Virus record (IMG/VR): IMGVR_UViG_3300017710_000026
Location: 1 to 34,504 of that record
Origin: a virus
Direction: 5' to 3' (one strand)
DNA: 34,504 bases
Of the stretch, positions 1,976 through 3,524 are shown in pieces. The stretch's first letter is position 1. Every line of letters starts with the position of its first letter. The position numbers were made by a program, and so were the translations under genes. A model generated the notes under the pieces. It saw only the letters and a list, made by a program, of their open reading frames with translations. It searched no databases and was not told where the DNA came from.

Positions 1976-2284
1976 ATGATAACACTGACGCAAAACGCAA
2001 AAAATCACTTAAAGTCACTAAGCGAAAAACATAAAAAGTCTTATGTTCGTTTAGAAGTAAAAGGTGGTGGGTGTGCTGGATTTGAATATGAATGGACGTT
2101 TTCTAATGGTCCTGATGATAATGATATTGTCATTGACAATCTATTGTTAGTTGATAAAATGTTTGAATTATACATTGTTGGATTAGAGTTAGATTATGTT
2201 GAAGAAATCTTTGGTTCAAACTTTGTCTTTAAAAACCCACAAGCAAAAAACACTTGTGGTTGTGGTACATCTTTTTCTATATAA
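1976..2284 (+). CDS. iscA: IscA/HesB/ErpA-type (A-type) iron-sulfur carrier
   Basis: A 102-residue protein with full family length and all three cysteines that bind iron or the cluster: C33 in GGGCAGFEYEW, and C94 and C96 in the terminal CGCG (NTCGCGTSFSI). A-type carriers receive Fe-S clusters from the scaffold and deliver them to apo-proteins in the cytoplasm. HesB/IscA-like genes are known auxiliary genes of marine T4-like phages. The gene lies 94 nt downstream of the dioxygenase and is probably read from the same sigma70-type promoter. No good Shine-Dalgarno precedes ATG 1976. A 35-codon ORF at 1927-2034 overlaps the start in another frame and could couple translation. The target apo-protein is not evident in this window. 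Confidence 0.92.
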   Translation: MITLTQNAKNHLKSLSEKHKKSYVRLEVKGGGCAGFEYEWTFSNGPDDNDIVIDNLLLVDKMFELYIVGLELDYVEEIFGSNFVFKNPQAKNTCGCGTSFSI

Positions 2285-2287
2285 ATA
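2280..2287 (+). promoter_or_regulatory. T4-type late promoter box upstream of the riboswitch
   Basis: TATAAATA exactly matches the T4 late promoter consensus recognised by the gp55-type late sigma factor. Initiation about 6 nt downstream would fall near 2293, only a few bases before the first riboswitch helix at 2297. The box overlaps the last codons of the IscA-like gene. Confidence 0.7.
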
Positions 2288-2296
2288 ATTAATAAT

Positions 2297-2346
2297 CGTT
2301 TATCCTATTACGGACGGAAGTAGGCACAATGCCGAAGAAACGCACC
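2297..2346 (+). ncRNA. Glutamine-II riboswitch (downstream-peptide / glnA-type aptamer)
   Basis: The RNA has the glutamine aptamer layout. P1 is CGTTT 2297-2301 with AAACG 2338-2342. A short P2 is TCC 2303-2305 with GGA 2312-2314. The signature GGAAGTAGG lies at 2316-2324, P3 is GGC 2323-2325 with GCC 2331-2333, and GAAG with ACGC closes P1. The primary sequence CGGAAGTAGG...CCGAAG.AACGC is the hallmark of the family that binds L-glutamine in cyanobacteria, cyanophages and marine metagenomes. A short ORF with a strong ribosome-binding site follows at 2375, as the name 'downstream peptide' implies. CACCT at 2343-2347 can pair with parts of the purine-rich ribosome-binding region 2364-2373, a possible expression platform (inference). 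Confidence 0.88.
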
Positions 2347-2374
2347 TAACTTTAAATTTACAAAGGAGGGTGGT

Positions 2375-2566
2375 ATGGGAAGATTTACGTCACTCCTAAA
2401 TAACTTTGCAAAGAACGCTAAGCACAAAAGACAAAACGAAGCGTTAATAAGAACCAAAGAAGAAGTTAACATTAATGGTAACGGCACTTCTGGATATACA
2501 ATTAAAGCAGGTTCTAATAAAGGCAAAGTATTAGGTCATATACAATCACATAAAAAAGATATTTAA
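2375..2566 (+). CDS. Small protein controlled by the glutamine riboswitch
   Basis: A 63-residue basic, hydrophilic protein (MGRFTSLLNNFAKNAKHKRQ at the N-terminus) with no recognised domain, signal peptide or membrane segment. The N-terminal 25 residues could form an amphipathic helix, and the C-terminal half is Gly/Asn/Lys-rich. It has the strongest ribosome-binding site of the island, AAAGGAGG at 2362-2369, five bases before ATG. Its position right after the riboswitch makes it the 'downstream peptide'. In cyanobacteria such small ORFs include glutamine synthetase inhibitors, so a role in nitrogen assimilation is plausible, but I see no homology that proves it. A terminator follows at once, so riboswitch, ORF and terminator form a one-gene unit. 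Confidence 0.8.
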   Translation: MGRFTSLLNNFAKNAKHKRQNEALIRTKEEVNINGNGTSGYTIKAGSNKGKVLGHIQSHKKDI

Positions 2567-2617: not shown

Positions 2618-2743
2618 CTAATATAACCCTAAACCGTTTTCAGGTGACATTGCCCACATAATTATGTACAACGCATAAAAGAAACCTATTGCGAAAGCAG
2701 TCCCAACAAGTGCCTTAGTTATTTCCCATATATCTTTTAACAT
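2618..2743 (-). CDS. 41-residue single-pass membrane protein
   Basis: The ORF reads MLKDIWEITKALVGTAFAIG, then a hydrophobic run FFYALYIIMWAM, ending SPENGLGLY. Residues about 11-32 make one transmembrane helix, with a short charged N-terminus and a polar C-terminus. A perfect TAAGGAG Shine-Dalgarno in the leader shared with the neighbouring gene at 2959 supports translation. It is the last gene of a four-gene minus-strand cassette and ends just before the terminator at 2576-2601. The function is unknown; small inner-membrane proteins of this type in phages are often superinfection or lysis modulators, which is only a possibility here. Confidence 0.7.
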   Translation of the reverse strand: MLKDIWEITKALVGTAFAIGFFYALYIIMWAMSPENGLGLY

Positions 2744-2758
2744 AGTGTTCTCCTTATT

Positions 2759-2959
2759 TTAGTTAGCGTTTAAATCTCTTTCTTTACCCATAATAATGTT
2801 TTTTGCAACATTACCTGTTTTCTTAAACCATCTATCATAAACATATTTAAGTCCTTTAAATTTTCTTTTAGGTATTGAAATATTGACTTCATCTAAAGAA
2901 CCCCAATTAGGTCCCGGTGTAGGTGTCACTTTAAAGTCTATGTGTATATTTTGTTTCAT
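2759..2959 (-). CDS. Hypothetical 66-residue basic protein
   Basis: Not recognised. The protein begins MKQNIHIDFKVTPTPGPNWG, with a Pro/Gly-rich turn, then a basic segment (KRKFKGLKYVYDRWFKKTGN) and a charged C-terminus. No signal peptide or membrane segment is visible. The start is supported by TAAGGAG, whose TAA is the stop codon of the upstream gene at 2970, so the two are translationally coupled. The 20 bases preceding the start are the same as those before the gene at 2743. Confidence 0.7.
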   Translation of the reverse strand: MKQNIHIDFKVTPTPGPNWGSLDEVNISIPKRKFKGLKYVYDRWFKKTGNVAKNIIMGKERDLNAN

Positions 2960-2969
2960 AGTGTTCTCC

Positions 2970-3317
2970 TTATTTTAAGTACAATGGACCAGTCCATTGA
3001 ATATTGTAATTACCAGTAAGTACATTACCTCTCGGTGAGTTTAAAGCAGGTGCATTGTAACCAGCAGCTTTCAATATATCACCTTTTTTAAAGTGTTTAA
3101 AATCTTCTTTTACAATAAACGCAAATACACCGTTTTCTTGTACGACTTTAATATACTTCTTTCCTTGAGAGACTTTAGTTTTACTGTCCCATTCTGCTAA
3201 TTGTCTTTTTCCGTAATCAGAACTTTCTCCCCACTTAGCATAATCGTCTTTAGCACCAGACATCATATTTTTGATACCTTCTTCTAAATTTTCAGCAGTT
3301 TTATTTACATTTATCAT
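2970..3317 (-). CDS. Hypothetical 115-residue protein
   Basis: Residues 1-45 are charged and helical (EEGIKNMMSGAKDDYAKWGE). Residues 52-115 look like a compact beta-rich domain: KKYIKVVQENGVFAFIV, FKKGDILKAAGYNAPA, and a C-terminal YNIQWTGPLYLK. The second half resembles a small conserved domain I associate with marine phage hypothetical proteins, but I cannot name a family or function. The leader has TAAGGA overlapping the stop of the upstream gene at 3327, so expression is coupled within the minus-strand cassette. Confidence 0.75.
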   Translation of the reverse strand: MINVNKTAENLEEGIKNMMSGAKDDYAKWGESSDYGKRQLAEWDSKTKVSQGKKYIKVVQENGVFAFIVKEDFKHFKKGDILKAAGYNAPALNSPRGNVLTGNYNIQWTGPLYLK

Positions 3318-3326
3318 AGTGTTTCC

Positions 3327-3524
3327 TTATTGGTTTATTTTTTTAAAGTTATAATCGTGTATAATCTTATTAATTGCATTTTTCATATTAATATCAATTA
3401 TATCTAAAAGGTCTTTATCAACCTCAACGATTTCTTTGATGTTTTTCTTCATTTTTTTAATCTGACTATAAGCAACATTTCTTACTATTGTCAAATTATT
3501 TGTTTTTGTTTCTTTTGTTGTCAT
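3327..3524 (-). CDS. Hypothetical 65-residue lysine-rich helical protein
   Basis: A small, Lys/Ile/Asp-rich protein predicted to be almost all helix (SQIKKMKKNIKEIVEVDKDL and onward). It has no recognised domain. It is the first gene of the minus-strand cassette. Unlike the three genes behind it, it has no Shine-Dalgarno sequence, and the bases before ATG are an alternating AT run. A promoter may lie immediately upstream (3533-3561), which would make its transcript nearly leaderless. Confidence 0.6.
   Translation of the reverse strand: MTTKETKTNNLTIVRNVAYSQIKKMKKNIKEIVEVDKDLLDIIDINMKNAINKIIHDYNFKKINQ

Follow-up and report, generated by a model that had tools for sequence, protein, structure and literature searches.

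According to a 2018 review, glutamine riboswitches are restricted to cyanobacteria, where the characterized members of type 1 and type 2 activate expression (PMC6316151). In the solved aptamer, the linchpin pair G23–C60 forms only with glutamine bound (PMC11477058, PMC5393176). Glutamine riboswitches in the phages Mosig and Melnitz and in related assemblies were already published in 2022, and the Melnitz riboswitch was assigned to the control of ssrA (PMC9004378). In a survey of pelagimyophages, late promoters could not be found and no riboswitches were reported (PMC7029224).

The locus described here lies in a window of 34.5 kb (the whole stretch of viral DNA that was analyzed, 34,504 nucleotides). 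The gp6-like protein encoded in the window has 61% identity with that of Mosig, a Pelagibacter phage, 58% with that of HTVC008M and then 55% with that of Melnitz, an OM43 phage, so that, judged by this protein, the window is a fragment of a T4-like pelagimyophage with Mosig and HTVC008M as nearest relatives. The virus is a marine T4-like phage and its host is probably SAR11 bacteria, as its kinship with pelagimyophages suggests. A nucleotide search of phage records with the riboswitch–ORF region gave no match, whereas a peptide search did find relatives, among them the Pelagibacter phages HTVC019P, Kolga and HTVC008M.

The reading considered probable is that a late pelagimyophage mRNA with a single gene begins with a type-1 glutamine riboswitch, which acts as a translational ON switch for a 63-residue protein. 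The features on which it is built are the following:

2280–2287, plus strand: T4-type late promoter box TATAAATA, exact match
2293, plus strand: predicted transcription start, placed by the T4 rule
2295–2346, plus strand: type-1 glutamine riboswitch aptamer (RF01739, glnA leader), from cmscan
2297–2301, plus strand: 5′ arm of P1, CGUUU, pairing with 2338–2342, from the cmscan alignment
2316–2317, plus strand: equivalents of G22 and G23 of the glutamine pocket, from alignment to the solved aptamer sequence (PMC5393176)
2338–2342, plus strand: 3′ arm of P1, AAACG, from the cmscan alignment
2343–2347, plus strand: anti-Shine–Dalgarno arm CACCU, its first base C2343 being the C60 equivalent, from folding and covariation
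2363–2369, plus strand: Shine–Dalgarno sequence AAGGAGG, read from the sequence
2368–2372, plus strand: GGGUG arm, pairing with 2343–2347 and overlapping the Shine–Dalgarno sequence, from a fold of 2343–2374 (−9.9 kcal/mol)
2375–2566, plus strand: basic protein of 63 residues, phrog_32989 (hmmscan, E = 3.7e-12), with the Shine–Dalgarno sequence at 2363–2369
2576–2601, no strand assigned: terminator hairpin between convergent units, from a scan (stem −17.3 kcal/mol, T run on the minus strand)

Glutamine aptamer and late promoter

An earlier note on this DNA had assigned the aptamer to a joint downstream-peptide/glnA class and proposed a check with the two Rfam covariance models. The glnA half of the assignment stood: the model of RF01739 matches positions 2295–2346 of the plus strand over its full length (1–53), with 56.8 bits against a cut-off of 35 and E = 4e-10 over the window, and it is the sole Rfam family above its gathering score in the window. 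The other half was rejected, since the Downstream-peptide model (RF01704) gave no match even at E ≤ 1 over 1880–2760. The bases of the ligand pocket are present in the alignment, namely ACGGAAGUA at 2314–2322, GAAG at 2334–2337 and the C directly after P1; this C2343 corresponds to C60 of the solved aptamer, and G2317 to G23. By this correspondence the aptamer is predicted to bind glutamine, and G2317–C2343 would be the ligand-dependent linchpin pair.

In T4, the late promoter box TATAAATA spans −13 to −6, and transcription starts about 6 nt 3′ of the box in dependence on the late sigma factor. The late box that the earlier note had placed at 2280 is borne out by an exact copy at 2280–2287, which by the T4 rule would set +1 near 2293, four bases 5′ of P1 (2297). 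The window holds 11 exact copies of TATAAATA, all 11 on the plus strand, which is that of the late genes, against 6.1 expected on both strands together; NATAAATA occurs five further times, always on the plus strand and never on the minus strand. Nine of the 11 copies of TATAAATA lie 16–55 nt 5′ of the start of a plus-strand ORF. With the aptamer lying in between, the riboswitch gene starts 95 nt from its box.

Related leaders were collected from viral contigs with an aptamer-core pattern (at least 120 stretches) and with a peptide profile for relatives of the 63-residue protein (best 80 of 351 used), and 102 distinct leaders running from aptamer to start codon were taken from all loci. By motif rules of this analysis, the peptides were divided into families A (63-residue type), B (DPRMQ, as in Mosig), C (NPFYP), D (YRG, DUF4278-like) and E (other). 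Among family-A leaders, 21 of 22 have the late-box core TAAATA no more than 25 nt 5′ of P1, as do 7/8 of family B, 17/41 of family E and a single one of 23 YRG leaders; from the flanking sequence, 0.017 per leader would be expected, or about 0.4 in all 22 family-A leaders. The core is found at −12 to −15 from P1 in 20 family-A leaders and in most leaders of A and B. Thus, these phages appear to have in common that the late transcript begins at the foot of P1, close relatives adding to the count, and the almost vanishing gap between predicted +1 and P1 pointed out in the earlier note is supported by its recurrence in many related phages. Expression of the 63-residue protein would then be late. 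In the riboswitch-free relatives L134, L140, L155, L159 and L170, TATAAATA stands 13 nt 5′ of the ATG and would yield a leaderless late mRNA.

A small ORF with a Shine–Dalgarno sequence follows nearly every aptamer found. The combination of late glutamine riboswitch and small gene is not peculiar to this phage and recurs in many related ones. Tandem pairs of glutamine aptamers before a single small ORF were observed in nine contigs (L018, L032, L066, L086, L097, L098, L014, L055 and L077), and freshwater-2, manA or permuted tmRNA elements near a glutamine riboswitch at L005:1882-1970, L005:2328-2532, L051:2398-2467, L057:7442-7646 and L061:1745-2032.

Shine–Dalgarno hairpin and direction of switching

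The spacer between aptamer and ATG is 28 nt long and holds a covarying hairpin that masks the Shine–Dalgarno sequence. In the window, CACCU pairs with GGGUG across this sequence, and CUUU pairs with AAAG in the interior of the hairpin (−9.9 kcal/mol). A helix of at least 5 contiguous base pairs from C60 to the Shine–Dalgarno region is present in 66 of the 102 distinct phage leaders. When the 3′ arms were swapped between leaders 1,000 times, a mean of 35 and a maximum of 44 leaders had at least 5 pairs from C60, none of the 1,000 swaps reaching 66; when each of the eight peptide clusters contributed a single representative, 2–12 of 2,000 swaps attained the observed mean, and in both controls shared ancestry is not fully removed. 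Compensatory stems across leaders include CACCU/GGGUG, CACC/GGUG, CAUC/GAUG, CAAUC/GAUUG, CUCUUU/AAGGAG and CACUUU/GAAGUG. C60 is paired in the minimum-energy fold of all leaders of families A (22/22), B (8/8) and C (7/7) and in 2 of 24 YRG leaders, which have the same aptamer. The late-leader organization and the hairpin are supported by these comparisons of sequence.

According to the proposed mechanism, the late promoter would start the transcript about four bases 5′ of P1. Without glutamine, CACCU (2343–2347) would pair with GGGUG (2368–2372) and mask the Shine–Dalgarno sequence; with glutamine bound, C2343 (C60) and G2317 (G23) would form the linchpin pair, and the hairpin thus weakened would let ribosomes start the 63-residue protein, whose output would come late in infection and mainly at plentiful glutamine. 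Since C60 joins G23 only in the bound state, the stem would yield its first pair upon glutamine binding, and hairpin and bound state would compete. Blocking C60 costs the window hairpin 3.1 kcal/mol, and blocking C60 and A61 costs 4.5 kcal/mol. Under the nearest-neighbor model, the Shine–Dalgarno sequence is still mostly paired after the latter block, and what is proposed is accordingly not full opening but a weaker hairpin that competes with the ribosome; the ligand may do no more than weaken the hairpin. Its covariation across phages supports a translational ON switch, while the ON direction itself would follow cyanobacterial precedent. Anatomy and known precedents together suggest that the 63-residue peptide is made at plentiful and not at scarce glutamine.

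The 63-residue protein and its counterparts

The small downstream gene proposed in the earlier note was confirmed: ORF 2375–2566 has a Shine–Dalgarno sequence and matches the profile of phrog_32989 over residues 5–52 (E = 3.7e-12), which is a large phage family, and pairs of its relatives show purifying selection (pN/pS 0.32). In bacterial genomes, just two relatives were found, at least one of them in a metagenome-assembled genome, and both are perhaps phage contamination. The protein matched nothing in Pfam or NCBIfam at E ≤ 1 and no PDB sequence. Its predicted structure consists of a helix at 3–27 and two strands (mean pLDDT 73, pTM 0.35); this fold had no match among PDB folds (best E 2.2), so no function was drawn from it. 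The comparison with glutamine synthetase inhibitory factors suggested in the earlier note was negative, with no sequence or profile similarity to the inactivating factors or DUF4278 (Pfam and NCBIfam, E ≤ 1), which share just small size and basic charge with the 63-residue family (mean charge +7.5).

The next genes (2618–3524) lie on the opposite strand in the window and likewise in relatives, so the 63-residue gene is alone on its transcript, barring readthrough. The terminator described as the gene's own in the earlier note is a real hairpin (2576–2601), but it is shared with the minus strand and better suited to it: the long T run is on that strand, so the hairpin mainly ends the convergent minus-strand genes. 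Two of the minus-strand genes carry a nearly identical leader AAAATAAGGAGAACACTATG (window 2743–2765 and 2959–2975). Directly 5′ of the cassette, an IscA-like iron–sulfur protein gene occupies window positions 1976–2284, and it adjoins the cassette in several relatives too.

With the Rfam model, a glutamine riboswitch was found in 19 of 46 peptide-encoding contigs, one in each. The other 27 records, most of them fragments and mostly of a distinct MIERLKDL subfamily, had none in the record; riboswitch-free relatives being this common, glutamine control is not essential to the role of the protein. HTVC019P, Kolga and HTVC008M encode homologous phrog_32989 proteins, but no glutamine riboswitch was found anywhere in the three genomes. 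Two riboswitch-free phages (L193:2821-3180 and L203:2851-3165) encode fusions of the 63-residue family with the C-terminal part of S-adenosylmethionine decarboxylase.

In the T4-like contigs, the cassette occupies one neighborhood, by the IscA-like gene and before a minus-strand island, PAAR, gp25 and gp6, and this position holds the 63-residue family in some genomes and a 51-residue family in others, including Mosig. A similar alternation is seen in riboswitch-free podophages, where phrog_20984 and phrog_24646 are preceded by the 63-residue type in HTVC019P and by the 51-residue type in HTVC103P. Homology of the two families was rejected, since profile comparison found none. The exchange of peptides at one position suggests related roles. 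The peptides encoded behind the riboswitch are basic, their mean charge being +6.2, compared with −0.1 in the other small ORFs. By analogy with the cyanobacterial glutamine-switched proteins, it is possible, as a tentative guess, that the 63-residue protein is a small basic binding protein acting on a host target; that this target belongs to nitrogen metabolism is likewise a guess. It is rather doubtful whether the whole can be generalized to a standard late cassette of marine T4-like phages, with the promoter at the riboswitch base, a C60-anchored Shine–Dalgarno hairpin and one interchangeable small basic protein from several unrelated families, which would act on host nitrogen metabolism at high glutamine.

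Alternative readings and comparison with described systems

With the opposite sign, the Shine–Dalgarno hairpin would stack on the glutamine-stabilized P1 and translation would be turned OFF, the protein being made when glutamine is short late in infection. This is nearer to the idea of the earlier note, which had stressed the nitrogen demand of that stage, and seems unlikely. P1 and the hairpin do abut in the minimum-energy fold, so that stacking is possible, and they do not overlap apart from the conflict at C60. Nevertheless, C60 cannot pair with G23 and the 3′ arm simultaneously, the covarying stem starts exactly at this base, and expression is activated by the characterized riboswitches of either glutamine class. 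A loss of ligand response, in which the aptamer is kept as a stable 5′ structure protecting the late mRNA and the peptide is made constitutively late, is given little credence: there are late relatives that lack the aptamer, and in some of these the late box precedes the ATG by 13 nt, but every leader retains the pocket bases (some of which the search pattern itself demands), the window has a full-length match of 56.8 bits, and the hairpin covaries.

It is very improbable that the aptamer governs transcription or RNA processing of neighboring genes or tmRNA, the small ORF being incidental, although control of ssrA was reported in Melnitz (PMC9004378). The ORF in the window is the sole plus-strand gene before convergent genes, it is under purifying selection in relatives, and small ORFs with a Shine–Dalgarno sequence follow nearly all aptamers found. 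In Melnitz itself, the riboswitch (46398–46446) and the annotated 3′ end of ssrA overlap, and within 25 nt 3′ of the riboswitch there is an unannotated 32-residue ORF, MTLYQQWCYLKAQKEYRRRQKILMYFRIRLKG, with a Shine–Dalgarno sequence and a CACUU/GAGUG stem of its own (riboswitch and ORF together, L211:1899-2065, with ssrA upstream). Relatives of this ORF follow an aptamer in L038, L070 and L110. From this arrangement, the 32-residue ORF appears a more plausible target than ssrA, which lies upstream; this suggests that the published assignment be revisited.

If the translational ON switch is true, abundant ocean viruses, SAR11 phages among them, have a metabolite-sensing RNA built into their late program. 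It would offer a concrete switching mechanism with a built-in comparison, the YRG-type leaders, most of which have no hairpin, and unrelated small viral proteins under one sensor would make a shared target a direct experimental question. In the literature surveyed, which excludes the primary riboswitch papers, no description was found of the cassette organization (late box, single gene and C60 hairpin) and no earlier account of the C60-anchored hairpin as a feature.

Among the related T4-like phages, Mosig has the same aptamer class, late box spacing and downstream small basic peptide as the window, and Melnitz has the same aptamer class; their peptide families (51 residues in Mosig, the unannotated 32 residues in Melnitz) differ from the 63-residue one. 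Downstream-peptide RNA (RF01704, the type-2 glutamine riboswitch) shares the ligand and the small protein downstream, but its covariance model fails on the window aptamer, even at E ≤ 1. The closest described RNA is of the glnA type (RF01739), as in the gifB leader of Synechocystis: the window shares its aptamer sequence and fold and its position as 5′ leader of a small protein, and activation by glutamine is likely common to both. In contrast to gifB, the 63-residue protein has no match to DUF4278 or to an inactivating factor, and the window element belongs to a phage, probably of SAR11, stands behind a phage late box and carries the C60-anchored Shine–Dalgarno hairpin, which few of the YRG-type leaders examined possess.
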